A DNA stretch of 38,379 nt, from assembly GCA_002793035.1 (NCBI GenBank), contig PFPL01000059.1, positions 1 through 38,379 of the forward strand. Direction: 5' to 3'. This DNA comes from Candidatus Magasanikbacteria bacterium CG_4_10_14_0_2_um_filter_33_14. Lineage in GTDB: Bacteria; Patescibacteriota; Patescibacteriia; Magasanikbacterales; UBA922. A model generated the notes under the pieces. The model was given only the letters and a program-made list of their open reading frames with translations, was not told the origin of the DNA and made no database searches. Below, piece by piece: positions 3,118 through 36,803 of the stretch (positions within the stretch are counted from its first letter, which is position 1; every line of letters starts with the position of its first letter). A program made the position numbers and the translations under genes.

Positions 3118-3228
3118 GCTTACGAAGCTTACAAGGCTTACGAGGCTCACACAATCTCATTAAAAATGTTCATCTAAGAATAACAGGCCTTGTAAGCCCT
3201 GTAAGCCTTGTGAGCATTGTAAGCCTCG
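3118..3228. repeat. Word-array hairpin, family A copy 1 (GCTTACAAG words)
   Basis: The left arm (3118-3150) is a head-to-tail run of 9-bp words such as GCTTACGAA, GCTTACAAG, GCTTACGAG and GCTCACACA. The right arm (3184-3228) is a run of the complementary words CCTTGTAAG, CCCTGTAAG, CCTTGTGAG and CATTGTAAG. The arms can pair into a long hairpin. Substitutions between words are mostly T/C and A/G, which keep G-U pairing in RNA. The right arm ends 3 nt before the era start codon. Three other copies are at 19215, 26995 and 37798. Confidence 0.85.
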
Positions 3229-10373: not shown

Positions 10374-10394
10374 AACATTGATTACACTGATTTT
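10374..10394. repeat. Left 21-bp inverted repeat of the GxxExxY cassette
   Basis: Starts AACATTGATTACACTG and is the exact reverse complement of 10822-10842. A second, degenerate copy of its GATT-CACTGA core follows at 10400-10416. Confidence 0.9.
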
Positions 10395-10411
10395 AAAAGA
10401 TTCCACTGAAA

Positions 10412-10804
10412 TTAATTATACTGTTTAAAATTTTTATAATTTGCGAAACGTTTTATATCAAGACTATCATTACAAAAATTAATTAACAAACCTATTTCTA
10501 AACCACTTGCTTTTAGGTAAGAAATTATTTGTGAATAAAATAATTTTGGAATTTCTCCTGAAATAGCTTTTAATTCAACGACAATCTTTCCCTCAACCAC
10601 CAAATCCAATATAAAAGTACCAACATGTTTATTCTGATACAGAATATCGAATTTCTTTTCACTATCAGCCGTTAGGTTTTCTTTCTCTAAATCTAAAATC
10701 ATAGCTTTATGATACACCCTTTCTTGGAAACCTGGTCCAATTTCACGATGTATTTTCATAGCTATACCAATTATTTTTCTTGTTAAATCACTCTCTTTAT
10801 ACAT
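10412..10804 (-). CDS. GxxExxY family protein (PD-(D/E)XK nuclease-like)
   Basis: A small protein of the GxxExxY family. The namesake motif is seen in GPGFQERVYHKAM. A strand pair FILDLVVEGKIVVELKAIS carries the D...ExK arrangement of PD-(D/E)XK nuclease folds, to which this family has been assigned; activity is not established. I choose the ATG at 10802-10804 (MYKESDLTRKIIGIAMK), which matches the family N-terminus. An upstream in-frame ATG at 10817-10819 adds five residues that lie in the flanking repeat region. The length of 130 residues is typical. It is co-oriented with the glycosyltransferase and rmlA genes it separates, and framed by a 21-bp inverted repeat. No link to sugar metabolism is implied. 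Confidence 0.9.
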   Translation of the reverse strand: MYKESDLTRKIIGIAMKIHREIGPGFQERVYHKAMILDLEKENLTADSEKKFDILYQNKHVGTFILDLVVEGKIVVELKAISGEIPKLFYSQIISYLKASGLEIGLLINFCNDSLDIKRFANYKNFKQYN

Positions 10805-10821
10805 AATCAGTAAAATCATTA

Positions 10822-10842
10822 AAAATCAGTGTAATCAATGTT
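10822..10842. repeat. Right 21-bp inverted repeat of the GxxExxY cassette
   Basis: Exact reverse complement of 10374-10394. Its last base is the first plus-strand base of the GT2 stop codon (10842-10844). Confidence 0.9.
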
Positions 10843-19214: not shown

Positions 19215-19296
19215 AAGCTTACGAGGCTCACAAGGCTCACGAGGCTTACAAGGCAAATTTATTGTAAGCCTTGTGAGCCTTGTAGGCAGTGTAAGC
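19215..19296. repeat. Word-array hairpin, family A copy 2
   Basis: The left arm (19215-19254) and right arm (19264-19296) consist of GCTTACGAG/GCTCACAAG-type 9-bp words. A 20-bp inner stem pairs with a single G-T wobble by hand alignment. It lies between the HIT gene stop and the Nudix gene start on the minus strand. Confidence 0.88.
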
Positions 19297-25599: not shown

Positions 25600-26994
25600 A
25601 TGCCTGACATCACCCAAATAGAGAAAATACCACCACAAAATTTGGAAGCCGAAAAATCACTTTTGGGCTCTATTTTGATTGACAAAGATGCCATGCTAAA
25701 AGTCTCAGATATTATCAACGAATCAGATTTTTACAAACGTTCTCACACCTACATTTATGACATAATGGTAGAGCTTTACCAAAAAAATGAACCTATTGAC
25801 GTCTTGACAGTGGCCAACAGACTAGAAGAAAAAAAACTTTTGGAAGGCTGTGGTGGTAAGAGTTATTTGATAGAATTGTCCAATTCTGTACCAACAGCAT
25901 CTCACATCGCCCAATACGCTGAAATTATCAAGAAAAAATCTACTCTTAGACAACTTCTAAACTCTGCTCACGAAATTTCCAAACTCGGCTATCAAGAAGA
26001 TTCTGATGACGTTGATAGTCTACTTGATCAAGCACAACAACATCTCTATGGCATTACTCAAAAACACATGAAACAGACTTTTGTCTCTATTCGTGGTGTT
26101 TTGAGTACAGCTTTTGAACGTATTGATGAATTGCACAAAGAAAAAGGAAAAATGCGTGGTATACCAAGTGGCATTACCAAACTAGATAGTATTCTCGCAG
26201 GTTTTCAAAAATCTGATTTGATTATTCTAGCCGCTCGTCCAGCTGTTGGTAAAACATCTTTTGCCCTAGATTTGGTAAGACATGCTGCCACTAGATACAA
26301 AGTCCCTGTTGGTTTCTTTTCACTCGAAATGAGTAAGGAACAGCTAGTAGACAGAATGCTTTGTGCTGAAGCTGGTATTGACCTATGGAAAATGAGAACT
26401 GGTAATCTATCCGACAAACCAGATAGTGATGACTTCCCTCGTATTGGTCACGCCATGGGAGTACTCTCCGACGCGCCAATTTATATTGATGACACTCCTG
26501 GTAACAATGTGATGCAAATCCGTACCAAAGCTAGACGTTTGCAAGCTGAACATGGTCTTGGCATGATTGTCATTGACTATATGCAACTTATGGAATCACA
26601 CAATGATAAAAATGTAAGTAATCGTGTGCAAGAAGTTGCTGTCATTAGTAGAAACTTGAAAGGTATTGCCCGTGAACTAAATATTCCTGTGATTGCGTTG
26701 TCACAGCTATCTCGTGCTGTAGAACAAACCAAACCAGCTATCCCAAAGTTGTCACATTTGCGTGAATCTGGTAGTATTGAACAGGATGCTGACATCGTGA
26801 TGTTCTTATATCGTAAAGCAGCTGATAGAAATTATCGTATGGAAGATATTCCACCAGATGAAAGAAATATTGCTGAAATTCATATCGCCAAACATAGAAA
26901 TGGTCCAACAGGTGTTGTCCGTACTTTCTTTGATGAAGCTCGTACTTCTTTCAAAAATCTTGATACTGATACGACTTACGAAAGTCAGGAATAA
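25600..26994 (+). CDS. dnaB: Replicative DNA helicase DnaB
   Basis: The hexameric 5'-3' helicase of the replication fork. The 464 residues have the N-terminal helical domain (IPPQNLEAEKSLLGSILID, about 10-110), a linker helix, and the RecA-like domain with Walker A ARPAVGKTS (about 212-220), EMSKEQLVDRMLCAEAGID, Walker B MIVIDYMQLM (Asp near 326), the arginine-finger region LSQLSRAVEQ, and LRESGSIEQDAD. Length and motif order are normal and there is no intein. The start at ATG 25600 matches the family; there is no Shine-Dalgarno site, and a word array ends 4 nt upstream. The family A copy 3 hairpin begins at its stop codon. Confidence 0.97.
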   Translation: MPDITQIEKIPPQNLEAEKSLLGSILIDKDAMLKVSDIINESDFYKRSHTYIYDIMVELYQKNEPIDVLTVANRLEEKKLLEGCGGKSYLIELSNSVPTASHIAQYAEIIKKKSTLRQLLNSAHEISKLGYQEDSDDVDSLLDQAQQHLYGITQKHMKQTFVSIRGVLSTAFERIDELHKEKGKMRGIPSGITKLDSILAGFQKSDLIILAARPAVGKTSFALDLVRHAATRYKVPVGFFSLEMSKEQLVDRMLCAEAGIDLWKMRTGNLSDKPDSDDFPRIGHAMGVLSDAPIYIDDTPGNNVMQIRTKARRLQAEHGLGMIVIDYMQLMESHNDKNVSNRVQEVAVISRNLKGIARELNIPVIALSQLSRAVEQTKPAIPKLSHLRESGSIEQDADIVMFLYRKAADRNYRMEDIPPDERNIAEIHIAKHRNGPTGVVRTFFDEARTSFKNLDTDTTYESQE

Positions 26995-27081
26995 AAGCTT
27001 ACCAGGCTCACGAGGCTTACAAAGCCCACAAGGCTTTTTAAAAAATTGTAAGCCTCGCAAGCCTTGTAGGCCTTGTAAGCT
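26995..27081. repeat. Word-array hairpin, family A copy 3
   Basis: The left arm (26995-27039, words GCTTACCAG, GCTCACGAG, GCTTACAAA, GCCCACAAG) starts at the dnaB stop codon. The right arm (27046-27081, TTGTAAGCC TCGCAAGCC TTGTAGGCC TTGTAAGCT) can fold back on it. It could also act as the dnaB 3' end, but no T-run follows. Confidence 0.88.
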
Positions 27082-27157: not shown

Positions 27158-27454
27158 ATGTTCAACAAACTAAAACAATTCAAAGATCTTCGTGATCAAG
27201 CCAAAGAAATGCAAAGTAAACTTTCAGAAGAAAGTATCACTGTAAAATCTGGTGGTGTTGAGTTGACTATGAATGGTAATTTGGAGCTTACCAATGTCAA
27301 TGTAGATACTGATACTCTTGATCCAAACAAAAAATCAAAAATAGAAAAAGACTTCAAAGATGCTCACGCTGATGCTCTCAAAAAAATGCAACGCGTGATG
27401 GCTATGAAAATGAAAGAAATGGGTGGACTACCAAATATTCCAGGACTTTCCTAG
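27158..27454 (+). CDS. ybaB: YbaB/EbfC family nucleoid-associated protein
   Basis: A 98-residue DNA-binding dimer that coats the nucleoid. Features: an N-terminal helix MFNKLKQFKDLRDQAKEMQS, a central strand pair SITVKSGGVELTMNGNLEL, and the C-terminal helix KIEKDFKDAHADALKKMQRV ending in Met-rich MAMKMKEMGGLPNIPGLS, as in the family. In many bacteria ybaB lies directly before recR; here a four-helix-bundle gene and two word arrays separate them. The TAG stop codon (27452-27454) is itself the first part of the family B array. A TATAAT at 27121-27126 could be its promoter -10. Confidence 0.93.
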   Translation: MFNKLKQFKDLRDQAKEMQSKLSEESITVKSGGVELTMNGNLELTNVNVDTDTLDPNKKSKIEKDFKDAHADALKKMQRVMAMKMKEMGGLPNIPGLS

Positions 27455-27482
27455 TTCTTAGTTCAAAGTTCACAGTTCTTAG
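27452..27482. repeat. Family B array, left end of the four-helix-bundle cassette
   Basis: Four heptamers AGTTCTT, AGTTCAA, AGTTCAC, AGTTCTT. The array is the reverse complement of 27859-27889 at 26 of 31 positions by hand alignment. It contains the ybaB stop codon. Confidence 0.88.
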
Positions 27483-27488
27483 ATTTAT

Positions 27489-27842
27489 ATGCAGACATGC
27501 AAAGATTTGAAAGTCTGGCAAAAATCTATAAAGTTAGTTACTTCAACTTATAAATTGACAGAATCTTTTCCTGATATAGAAAAATTTGGTTTAATAAGTC
27601 AAATGAGGAGAGCTTCTGTATCAATACCGTCAAATATCGCAGAAGGTTTTGCTAGAAAAAATAAAAAAGAAAATGCCCATTTTGTGAGCATTGCTTATGC
27701 ATCTGGTACAGAATTAGATACTCAAATAATAATATCCAAAGAATTAAATTTTGTTTCCGAAGAAGATTCACAACAATTAGAAAAACAATTGGAAGAAATA
27801 TTAAAGATGCTTTATTCTTACCGCAATTATCTACATAAATAA
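27489..27842 (+). CDS. Four-helix-bundle protein, 23S rRNA intervening-sequence (S23) family
   Basis: A 117-residue protein of the S23/IVP family, related in fold to the Avd protein of diversity-generating retroelements. The diagnostic blocks are present: CKDLKVWQKSIKLVTSTYKL, FPDIEKFGLISQMRRASVSI, PSNIAEGFARKNKKENAHFV and SIAYASGTELDTQIIISKEL. Members are found inside 23S rRNA intervening sequences or, as here, as isolated genes; their molecular role is unknown, though nucleic acid binding is suspected from the basic surface. The start codon is 6 nt after the left array. The gene runs in the same direction as ybaB and recR. Confidence 0.93.
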   Translation: MQTCKDLKVWQKSIKLVTSTYKLTESFPDIEKFGLISQMRRASVSIPSNIAEGFARKNKKENAHFVSIAYASGTELDTQIIISKELNFVSEEDSQQLEKQLEEILKMLYSYRNYLHK

Positions 27843-27858
27843 AAATTATTTCAATGAC

Positions 27859-27889
27859 CTAAGAACTAAGAACACTGAACTCAGAACTA
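27859..27889. repeat. Family B array, right end of the four-helix-bundle cassette
   Basis: Heptamers AAGAACT, AAGAACA, CTGAACT, CAGAACT. It ends 5 nt before the recR ATG and is inverted relative to 27452-27482. Confidence 0.88.
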
Positions 27890-27894
27890 TTACT

Positions 27895-28497
27895 ATGTAC
27901 AGTAAATCAATCCAAAATCTAATCAAAGCTTTTAGTAGACTCCCTAGCGTCGGACATCGTACCGCAGAACGCTTTGTTTTTTATTTACTCAAGTCTGGCA
28001 AAAAAGATGTGGCAGAGCTAACAATAGCTCTCAAAGAATTGATAGAAAATATCAAGAGTTGTGAAGTCTGCTGGGATTTTGCAGATGCTAGTCCTTGTAA
28101 TTTTTGTACAGATACCAGACGTGATCACAAAGTCATCTGTGTTGTCTGCCAACCACAAGACAGAGAAACAATTGAAAAGACCAAAGAATTTACAGGAGTC
28201 TATCATATTTTACGAGGAACACTAAAGCCAGATGATGAAAATATTTCCAAATTTCTAAAAATAAATGAGCTCATCTCAAGATTACAAAAAAATGTCGTGG
28301 ATGAAGTAATCTTGGCTTTGAACCCTGATATCAACGGGGAAACAACCATGATGTATTTAGAAAGACAAATAAAGAAACTCAAGCCAGAAATAAAAGTCAC
28401 TCGCTTAGCTCGAGGACTGCCAATGGGTAGTGACTTACAATATGCTGATGAGATTACACTGAGTAGTGCTCTGAAGAATAGAATTAGTAGTAAGTAA
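27895..28497 (+). CDS. recR: Recombination protein RecR
   Basis: RecR works with RecO (and RecF) to load RecA at gaps. The 200 residues have the helix-hairpin-helix start SIQNLIKAFSRLPSVGHRTA, the zinc module CEVCWDFADASPCNFC (four Cys), and the Toprim domain (VICVVCQPQDRETIEKTKEF to EVILALNPDINGETTMMYL). The C-terminal segment is [19 protein letters not shown] followed by [10 protein letters not shown]. Length and motifs are normal. The family B array ends 5 nt upstream of the ATG and there is no Shine-Dalgarno site. A second, diverged copy of its last 120 bp lies at 29112-29231, beyond the phosphodiesterase gene. Confidence 0.96.
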   Translation: MYSKSIQNLIKAFSRLPSVGHRTAERFVFYLLKSGKKDVAELTIALKELIENIKSCEVCWDFADASPCNFCTDTRRDHKVICVVCQPQDRETIEKTKEFTGVYHILRGTLKPDDENISKFLKINELISRLQKNVVDEVILALNPDINGETTMMYLERQIKKLKPEIKVTRLARGLPMGSDLQYADEITLSSALKNRISSK

Positions 28498-28501
28498 AAT
28501 T

Positions 28502-29089
28502 ATGAAAATAGCAATAATATCCGACATACATGAAAATTTTCACAATCTTGTTTTGTTTTTCAAAGAAATTGAAAAATTGAATGTAAAAAAAATTATATGT
28601 TTGGGTGATCTTATGAATAATGGAATTGCCAAAATGTTAGCAGCTTCAGATATACCAGTAATAGCAATCTGGGGAAACAATGACGGTGATAAAGTTGCTA
28701 TCACAAAAACATCTTTGAAAGAAGGGAGCAATTTGACTGTTGGTTTTACTACTTATGATTTTTTGGAAATTGATAATAAAAAAATATTCATTACTCACTA
28801 CCCTATAATAGCTAAACCAATGGCAAAATCTGGAGATTTTGATGCTGTTTTTTATGGACACAGTCACAAAAAACATATCGACAAAGTAAATGATTGTATT
28901 ATTGTAAACCCAGGTGAAATATCATCTCATAGAACAAGCACTGCTAGCTTTGCGATATATGATACAACAAAAAATGATGTTGAAATTATTGAACTCGAAA
29001 ACATAATTTGTGTTAATACAGAAGATGCAAAAAAATACAGAAATGAAAAACAAATCAAACCTCCAAATTCAAAAACACACGAATATTAA
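28502..29089 (+). CDS. YfcE-type metallophosphodiesterase
   Basis: A 195-residue calcineurin-like phosphoesterase. Metal-binding motifs appear in order: AIISDIHENFHN (Asp, His), ICLGDLMNNG (Gly-Asp), IWGNNDGD (Asn-Asn-Asp), FITHYPII (His) and FYGHSHKKHIDK (His-x-His), followed by INPGE-like VNPGEISSHR. Such enzymes cleave phosphodiesters; the physiological substrate is unclear. The C-terminal 30 residues (VNTEDAKKYRNEKQIKPPNS) are an unstructured extension. It begins 4 nt after recR and lies between the two recR 3' ends, so it may have arrived with a recombination event. Confidence 0.92.
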   Translation: MKIAIISDIHENFHNLVLFFKEIEKLNVKKIICLGDLMNNGIAKMLAASDIPVIAIWGNNDGDKVAITKTSLKEGSNLTVGFTTYDFLEIDNKKIFITHYPIIAKPMAKSGDFDAVFYGHSHKKHIDKVNDCIIVNPGEISSHRTSTASFAIYDTTKNDVEIIELENIICVNTEDAKKYRNEKQIKPPNSKTHEY

Positions 29090-29111
29090 AAATTAATAAA
29101 TTAAAAAAACA

Positions 29112-29228
29112 AAGCCTGAAATAAAAGTCACTCGCCTCGCTCGAGGATTACCGATGGGTAGTGATTTACAATATGATGATGAGATTACACTTAGTAGTGC
29201 TTTGAAGAATAGAATTAGTAGTAAATAA
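29112..29228 (+). pseudogene. Second, diverged recR 3' end (remnant)
   Basis: The 120 bp at 29112-29231 align with the recR end at 28381-28500 without gaps and with 11 differences by my count. The encoded peptide ([19 protein letters not shown], then [19 protein letters not shown], then stop) differs by one residue, Ala to Asp; all other changes are synonymous. This is the pattern of a functional allele, not of neutral decay. It has no start codon or N-terminal part and is not expected to be expressed. It is likely a scar of recombination with a related strain, or a displaced original end. Confidence 0.9.
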
Positions 29229-36170: not shown

Positions 36171-36235
36171 AAAACTAATAATTAGTAATTAATAATTGTT
36201 AATTGTTAATTGTTAATTGTTAATTGTTAATTGTT
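36171..36235. repeat. Heptamer tandem array (AATTGTT)
   Basis: Six exact copies of AATTGTT in a row at 36194-36235, preceded by degenerate TAATTA words from about 36171. It lies between the small membrane protein gene and the mra operon terminator. This is the only perfect tandem among the word arrays, suggesting recent slippage. Confidence 0.9.
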
Positions 36236-36672: not shown

Positions 36673-36715
36673 AAGTGACAGGCTGATGAAATAAATACGT
36701 TTTTATATCAATCTA

Positions 36716-36782
36716 ACATTCGAATTACGAATACTTGCGAATATACGAATTCGCAGATTCGTAAGATTTCGTAATTCAAATG
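36716..36782. repeat. Word-array hairpin, family D (CGAATTA words)
   Basis: The left arm (36716-36752) and right arm (36754-36782) are made of CGAATTA/CGAATACTT and ATTCGTAA/TTTCGTAATT words. They pair into a hairpin of about 25 bp with small bulges, between rsmH and the ftsL-like gene. Confidence 0.75.
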
Positions 36783-36803
36783 TAATGATAAATTAAAATA
36801 TTT

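Follow-up and report, generated by a model that had tools for sequence, protein, structure and literature searches.

An S23 gene cassette framed by inverted heptamer arrays between ybaB and recR of a Magasanikbacteria genome, and evidence that such cassettes are mobile

The closest described relatives of the locus presented here are the intervening sequences (IVSs) of 23S rRNA genes that carry an S23p ORF, as in Coxiella and Leptospira (PMC4990558). These IVSs are excised by RNase III; the one of Coxiella is 428 nt long with GACAGAT heptamers upstream of its ORF, and the S23p of Xanthomonas was described as a toroidal homopentamer (PMC4990558). In CPR bacteria, the host group of the present locus, 23S_rRNA_IVP ORFs were reported in insertions of both 16S and 23S genes by a survey limited to rRNA genes (PMC11270868). 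A second precedent is provided by tandem degenerate heptamers that are intergenic and scattered across phyla, namely the cyanobacterial STRR repeats and the TAACTGA arrays known from Beggiatoaceae, cyanobacteria and Bacteroidetes; the paper on the latter speculates that a repeat-binding protein might be the mobile element (PMC4679880). The third is the REPIN/RAYT and MITE arrangement (PMC3116915), in which gene-free inverted hairpins are dispersed in intergenic regions and a few gene-bearing copies are flanked by the same repeats. Our literature search, which covered few subscription journals, yielded no description of inverted heptamer arrays around orphan S23 or GxxExxY genes, or of their empty sites.

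The window (the whole stretch of 38,379 nucleotides that was analysed) is contig C33 of a Candidatus Magasanikbacteria genome of 1.097 Mb (71 contigs, 97% complete). The closest named relative is Candidatus Magasanikbacteria RIFOXYD12_FULL_33_17 (L266). An S23 cassette lies between ybaB (27158-27454) and recR (27895-28497) and has the following parts:

27452-27482, plus strand: left arm, a degenerate heptamer array (TAGTTCTTAGTTCAAAGTTCACAGTTCTTAG) of 31 nt that includes the ybaB stop codon and is 84% complementary to the right arm
27489-27842, plus strand: gene of an S23/IVP four-helix-bundle protein of 117 aa (PF05635, TIGR02436, PDB 2gsc, dN/dS)
27859-27889, plus strand: right arm (CTAAGAACTAAGAACACTGAACTCAGAACTA), in opposite orientation to the left one and ending 5 nt upstream of the recR ATG

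The sequence-only reading had placed the cassette at 27452-27889 and counted 26 complementary positions out of 31 by hand; a repeat search returned the same coordinates and count, with 376 nt separating the arms. The position of the ybaB end (27454) puts its stop codon inside the left arm. Both arms are imperfect tandem arrays of degenerate 7-nt units, as in STRR repeats (TRF period 7; 27448-27482 and 27859-27889). The ORF between them belongs to the S23 family (Pfam 23S_rRNA_IVP, PF05635, 137.7 bits against a cut-off of 33.8; NCBIfam TIGR02436, four helix bundle protein), its PDB homologue is 2gsc (XCC0516, E 8.7e-26), and comparison with the same-site orthologue in genome G001 gives a dN/dS of 0.09. 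The S23/IVP protein is a non-catalytic four-helix bundle. It is the sole ORF of the cassette, and Pfam and NCBIfam searches found no nuclease or recombinase domain there, so that the cassette has no transposase of its own. Downstream of recR, a second recR-like partial match (29013-29225, 69% identity, two stops) is a decayed duplicate.

The predicted RNA stem of the arms closes the whole element with the ORF in its loop (MFE z -2.7; the RNA folds closed by cassette arms have z values of -2.7 and -3.1). S23 cassettes share with 23S IVSs the protein family, the stem-forming inverted ends, the ORF in the loop, the size and the sporadic distribution. They differ by their location in protein operons and between tRNAs instead of rRNA, by heptamer-array arms on both sides with lineage-specific words, by many copies per genome and by the existence of gene-free derivatives. 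The ybaB-recR cassette is not within a 16S or 23S rRNA gene: no Rfam rRNA match was found in the window, and across the window and the S23 loci sampled Rfam matched nothing but tRNAs (three in locus L173, one in L262). We file the feature as an IVS-like element outside rRNA. STRR and TAACTGA arrays are direct repeats without a linked gene, whereas the arrays of S23 cassettes are inverted pairs bracketing S23 or GxxExxY genes. S23 is a distant homologue of the Avd protein of diversity-generating retroelements (bAvd 24.9 bits, DivGenRetAVD 28.9 bits, both below cut-off), and the genome has no reverse transcriptase, which sets the locus apart from that class.

The same genome encodes 12 PF05635 (S23) genes and four GxxExxY/PDDEXK_3 genes, one of the latter in the window, and nearly all 16 are bracketed by inverted short-word arrays. 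The array word is private to each gene lineage, for example GCTTACAAG, AGGCTGAAA, ATTAGATTA, AAATTGTT and CATTCGAATTACGAATT. When the upstream flank of each gene was aligned to its reverse-complemented downstream flank, a score of at least 24 was reached by 9/16 S23 and GxxExxY genes against 5/953 other genes (Mann-Whitney p=1.5e-6 for the 12 S23 genes and p=7e-4 for the four GxxExxY genes). The ybaB-recR gene itself has a score of 21 (rank 34 of 969 genes), and its inverted repeat also scores 21 in the genome-wide scan, where 89 inverted repeats reach 20 or more in the genome compared to two in a Markov-1 control genome. A GIY-YIG nuclease-like gene (C68:19889-20493), which lies between the halves of a near-perfect 32-nt inverted repeat of another kind (TCCCTGACCCGCCGAAGGACGG), is perhaps another cargo of a similar element.

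Words of the cassettes also build dozens of gene-free hairpins (loop 0-40 nt), which are far commoner in the genome than the gene-bearing forms. The window holds a second cassette and six gene-free features:

3118-3224, no strand: gene-free hairpin, GCTTACAAG family, with words of 9 nt; the GCTTACAAG word also brackets the S23 gene of contig C22
4164-4198, plus strand: gene-free array with the word of the ybaB-recR cassette (TTAAGAACTAAGAACTCTGAACAAAGAACTATTAT), 4 mismatches over 34 relative to the right arm
10374-10842, minus strand: second cassette, with a GxxExxY (PDDEXK_3) gene at 10412-10819 and arms at 10374-10409 and 10807-10842
19217-19296, no strand: gene-free hairpin, GCTTACAAG family (repeat scans)
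26994-27080, no strand: gene-free hairpin, GCTTACAAG family, immediately upstream of ybaB
36701-36798, no strand: gene-free hairpin with the CGAATTACGAATT word (CGAATT), which brackets the GxxExxY gene of contig C42
37798-37883, no strand: gene-free hairpin, GCTTACAAG family (repeat scans)

Hairpin density was compared over two S23-free and two S23-bearing genomes. Long hairpins amount to 7.6 per 100 kb in the present, S23-bearing genome and to 1.0-1.2 in the two S23-free relatives; periodic gene-free hairpins number 42 in 1097 kb of the former and none in 362 kb of the latter. Dispersed and polymorphic, the gene-free members are MITE- or REPIN-like inverted-repeat copies, a description that does not extend to the gene-bearing ybaB-recR copy. 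Unlike REPIN/RAYT and MITE systems, S23 elements have no Y1 or DDE domain, comprise many word families per genome and are mobile in the gene-bearing form itself. Further arrays and hairpins were recorded: a perfect TAATTGT heptamer array of six copies, intergenic and without inverted partner (36176-36235 of the window); gene-free hairpins of the CTCCCCCTATTAGGGGGAGTTAGAGGGGGTC type in genome G004 (L234, 9335-9476) and in the present genome (C38:27876-27973), with one in the ybaB-recR gap of G004; and a further gene-free family, the GTCACCCTGAATTTATTTCAGGGTCTTT hairpins dispersed in G004 (L236, L228).

The flanks of other S23 genes do contain inverted short-word arrays. For the 58 cassettes of relatives with both flanks available, 78% lie beyond the 95% quantile of mispaired S23 flanks, a null that is conservative because it includes arrays of the same kind. 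The corresponding values are 58% for 26 cassettes of a phylum sample and 54% for 78 cassettes of a cross-phylum sample (including Chryseobacterium, Pedobacter, Prevotella, Bacteroides, Desulforhopalus, Planctomycetes, Lentisphaeria, Cloacimonadota and Chlorobiota). The autocorrelation of S23 flanks is 1.38 at lag 7 and 1.24-1.29 at lag 14, compared to 0.99 and 0.97 in control flanks. This arm architecture with its 7-nt period surrounds S23 genes of Patescibacteria, where S23 is present in 145/287 sampled genomes, of Bacteroidota, of plasmids of Cyanobacteriota, and of others. Cyanobacterial plasmids carry S23 genes; carriage by phages was considered and rejected, with no S23 found in 50,697 phage records. 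A universal end motif (..AG, gene, CT..) was considered and discarded as not diagnostic, since its left part occurs in 14/19 and 35/70 cases outside the genus and in only 10/53 of the genus set. Upstream of the S23 gene of Anabaena 90 (L354, 1600-1960), a CAGGTGA/CAGGGAA heptamer array extends over ~340 bp while the matching right arm is short, showing that a single arm can expand greatly.

Similarity between arms is ~0.13 for S23 pairs less than 35% identical and rises to ~0.47 above 85% identity. The arm words hence travel with the gene lineage, which fits a recognition of the arms by the protein, and S23 plausibly recognises its own arms as ends, as judged from these sequence comparisons. 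Most S23 pairs have a dN/dS of 0.05-0.15. Such purifying selection indicates that the protein is important either to spread or to the host. On the other hand, the words differ wholly from one lineage to the next and at some sites turn over, which leaves no universal end sequence. The difference between lineages, together with that between G000 and G012 at the nusG-rplK site (see below), makes recognition of a fixed sequence doubtful.

The cleanest evidence for movement comes from the trb operon of cyanobacterial plasmids, whose neighbouring genes are 97-98% identical and which are yet one exact 428-bp S23 insertion apart. The empty site (AAAAAGTAAT followed by TAACAAATAA, that is AAAAAGTAATTAACAAATAA) is found in AP018310, AP018224 and AP018234. 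The filled site (NC_007412, AP018264) consists of AAAAAGTAAT, the element running from AAATCAGAATTCAGAAGTC through S23 to CTCCTGAGTTCTTCTTT, and GTAATTAACAAATAA; the insertion is made of 423 bp plus a second GTAAT (5-bp duplication). Another plasmid has a decayed cassette copy at this site. The empty plasmids carry no array whatever, which shows that arms and gene came together. This bears on the possibility that the arms came first, i.e., that heptamer hairpins pre-existing as STRR-like terminators or mRNA stabilisers served as targets whose loops the S23 and GxxExxY genes entered in some other way. Such an order would agree with gene-free hairpins being more numerous than gene-bearing ones and having words in common with them. 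It is contradicted by the clean trb site, by arms that follow the S23 phylogeny across loci and are common to paralogues, and by S23-free relatives that do not have such hairpins. The exact arm-free empty sites largely refute the role of arms as pre-existing targets, and we regard the arms-first order as very unlikely.

At a second site, in Nostoc plasmids, three are filled and four empty. Two of the filled plasmids (L348 and L349) differ by 2 mismatches over positions 2439-2863 (~425 bp), whereas the genes to either side are 7.5% and 8.3% divergent; at synonymous sites the divergence of S23 is 0.01, versus 0.40 and 0.32 for its neighbours. Near-identity confined to the cassette amid diverged flanks identifies the exchanged tract as the cassette. 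A third site is occupied by homologous cassettes that share the AGTCAGG/AGAATTC words, and the adjacent gap of a fourth plasmid contains a different S23 with GGGAAAA words that its relatives do not have. S23 is also located between cas10 and cmr3 of PCC 7003, where PCC 7002 has a 12-nt gap. Within Magasanikbacteria, the paralogue pairs L211/L214 and L208/L209 (from G002 and G001, each pair at two loci of one genome) have a similarity that comprises gene plus arms only. The cassettes are positioned at stop codons and operon junctions. Gene-free versions are also mobile: a ~180-nt gene-free hairpin with the AGTCAGG word interrupts an S23 gene in pNPM1, and a gene-free element with TTTAGAT words is present in AP018308 and not in two relatives. 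The target duplication is clean at one site only (the 5-bp GTAAT of a homologous plasmid cassette); elsewhere the junctions are ambiguous, owing either to the AATTCT at the end of the right arm itself or to diverged flanks. TTCTA was initially a candidate 5-bp duplication at the second plasmid site and was downgraded, as the right arm of the element ends with AATTCT at the third site.

These data show that gene plus arms is inserted, exchanged and lost as one unit. The sequence-only reading had proposed a moving unit of this composition, and its support comes mostly from homologous cassettes rather than from the ybaB-recR copy. The unit is far more general than was proposed there, spanning phyla; the commoner gene-free hairpins of cassette words, the GxxExxY genes with the same architecture and the spread over phyla all lie beyond that reading. 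Transcriptional or translational punctuation around an immobile host gene (terminators, all-frame stops) would account for arms that adjoin the gene ends and for 7-nt words with a stop codon, which by arithmetic place stops in all frames over three repeats. Exact insertions, cassette-limited exchange, paralogous dispersal and the gene-free insertion inside an S23 gene speak against it. As a full account, punctuation is refuted by the empty sites and is scarcely credible.

The history of orthologous sites, as read at a part of them, shows how cassettes change in place. Between ybaB and recR, the cassette of G001 is an orthologue built of the same words, G003 has another S23 (64% identical) with AGCCAAT words, and in G002, G004 and G009 the gap holds hairpins that have other words and no gene. 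The search for an uninterrupted ybaB-recR junction, which the sequence-only reading had suggested, was successful in G006 and G008, where the gap is 4 nt, and yielded no near-identical strain with an empty site for this copy. In the dnaB-ybaB gap, G002 has a hairpin of another word than the GCTTACAAG hairpin of the window. At pyk-ppdK, G000 and G001 have an intact cassette; G003 retains no more than a 101-nt S23 remnant, inverted between the arms, and a gene-free hairpin of another word replaces the S23 5′ half in G004. The GxxExxY gene is decayed with its arms kept at two sites, and for the 10374-10842 cassette this is the case in G001 and G003. At nusG-rplK, homologous S23 genes are found in G000, G004 and G012, the arm words of G000 being other than those of G012, and a gene-free hairpin is found in G001 and G003. 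Two further sites could be taken in favour of arms first. At the GT-YtxH site, the place of S23 in G000 and G004 is taken in G001 and G003 by a short array that has the same word and no gene; at one leuS-adjacent site the outer arm tips are common while inner words and protein differ. The comparisons as a whole indicate that cassettes arrive whole, are reduced to hairpins by decay and can become inverted between the arms, and that arm words can turn over. The hairpins to which cassettes decay, or with which they coexist, have the same words and no gene.

Which activity would move such elements was approached by the co-occurrence of S23 with Y1 transposases, reverse transcriptases (RT) and GxxExxY in the 287 Patescibacteria genomes, a survey limited to these three families. 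S23 could be passive cargo, if a resident transposase (IS200/IS605 Y1, or DDE) recognised the arms of MITEs that had captured an S23 gene of benefit to the host. The inverted ends and the 5-bp duplication at one site are of the kind expected, Y1 transposases and S23 tend to occur in the same genomes (OR 2.8, p 6e-5), and the present genome encodes two of the former. We nevertheless consider passive cargo unlikely: 71/145 S23 genomes have no Y1 hit, 33 have neither Y1, RT nor GxxExxY (one of these holds 11 S23 genes), there is no conserved terminal motif, and the cargo of different phyla comes from the same gene families. A trans-acting GxxExxY PD-(D/E)XK nuclease, mobilising all hairpins with S23 elements as its non-autonomous partners, would explain why GxxExxY genes lie in the same kind of arms and why S23 is present in 42/45 GxxExxY genomes (Fisher 4e-11). 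Its absence from 103/145 S23 genomes renders this quite improbable. Neither Y1 nor GxxExxY is supported as an obligatory partner by the 33 genomes devoid of both and of RT. RVT_1 is absent from the present genome at its 97% completeness; a resident reverse transcriptase is thus not needed there, and is ruled out as an obligatory resident partner for this genome.

Our preferred reading, to which we assign a probability of roughly 0.6, is that the cassettes form a widespread family of tiny mobile elements (~420-520 bp), each with an S23 gene between inverted arrays of degenerate 7-9 nt words, which are IVS-like, located outside rRNA and guided by S23. The element would be an intervening sequence within an operon transcript, where its arms would pair as a ~30 bp stem with the gene in the loop. 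By analogy with 23S IVSs, RNase III would probably cleave this stem, and we propose that the cleavage would render an intergenic insertion nearly harmless. An S23 oligomer, relative of Avd, would bind its own arm stem as RNA or as a single-stranded DNA hairpin and bring it to host or trans-encoded enzymes that would copy or join the element into a new site. The gene-free hairpins would be non-autonomous derivatives, as REPINs are to RAYTs. Counting against this reading, no excised, circular or RNA form of the element was observed, and the S23p of Coxiella is apparently untranslated (PMC4990558). More tentatively, and with odds somewhat against it, this non-catalytic protein may be a specificity factor for a lineage-specific heptamer-array stem, spreading itself and gene-free hairpins by means of host enzymes, in one phylum-spanning class that would unite orphan S23 genes, part of the STRR-type arrays and the S23-bearing rRNA IVSs. 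There is a substantial chance that S23 cassettes are a distinct class of mobile element.

Two long-standing puzzles of many genomes, the orphan genes annotated as "four helix bundle protein" and the scattered heptamer arrays, are joined here as one mobile unit. This gives a context to the orphan S23 genes, offers an origin for part of the heptamer arrays, and suggests a route by which S23 genes enter rRNA and operons. It also opens a direct test of the movement of an element of less than 500 bp without recognisable recombinase.

S23 cassettes were also observed within CRISPR-cas operons (cas6-cas4; cas10-cmr3) in L354 (NC_019429), L371 (NZ_CP016476) and NZ_CP112875, and are absent from the same operons of the relatives L361 and L393. 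The 23S rRNA IVP was listed with CRISPR adaptation modules (PMC10910872); its absence from the operons of relatives suggests that this listing may result from incidental insertion. Guilt-by-association with S23 may mirror random insertion into operons. In Synechocystis PCC 7339 (L394, NZ_CP063660, 821-1375) a gene coding a Uma2-family endonuclease, with no evident arms, is found in the cas10-cmr3 gap, the place taken by S23 in PCC 7003.
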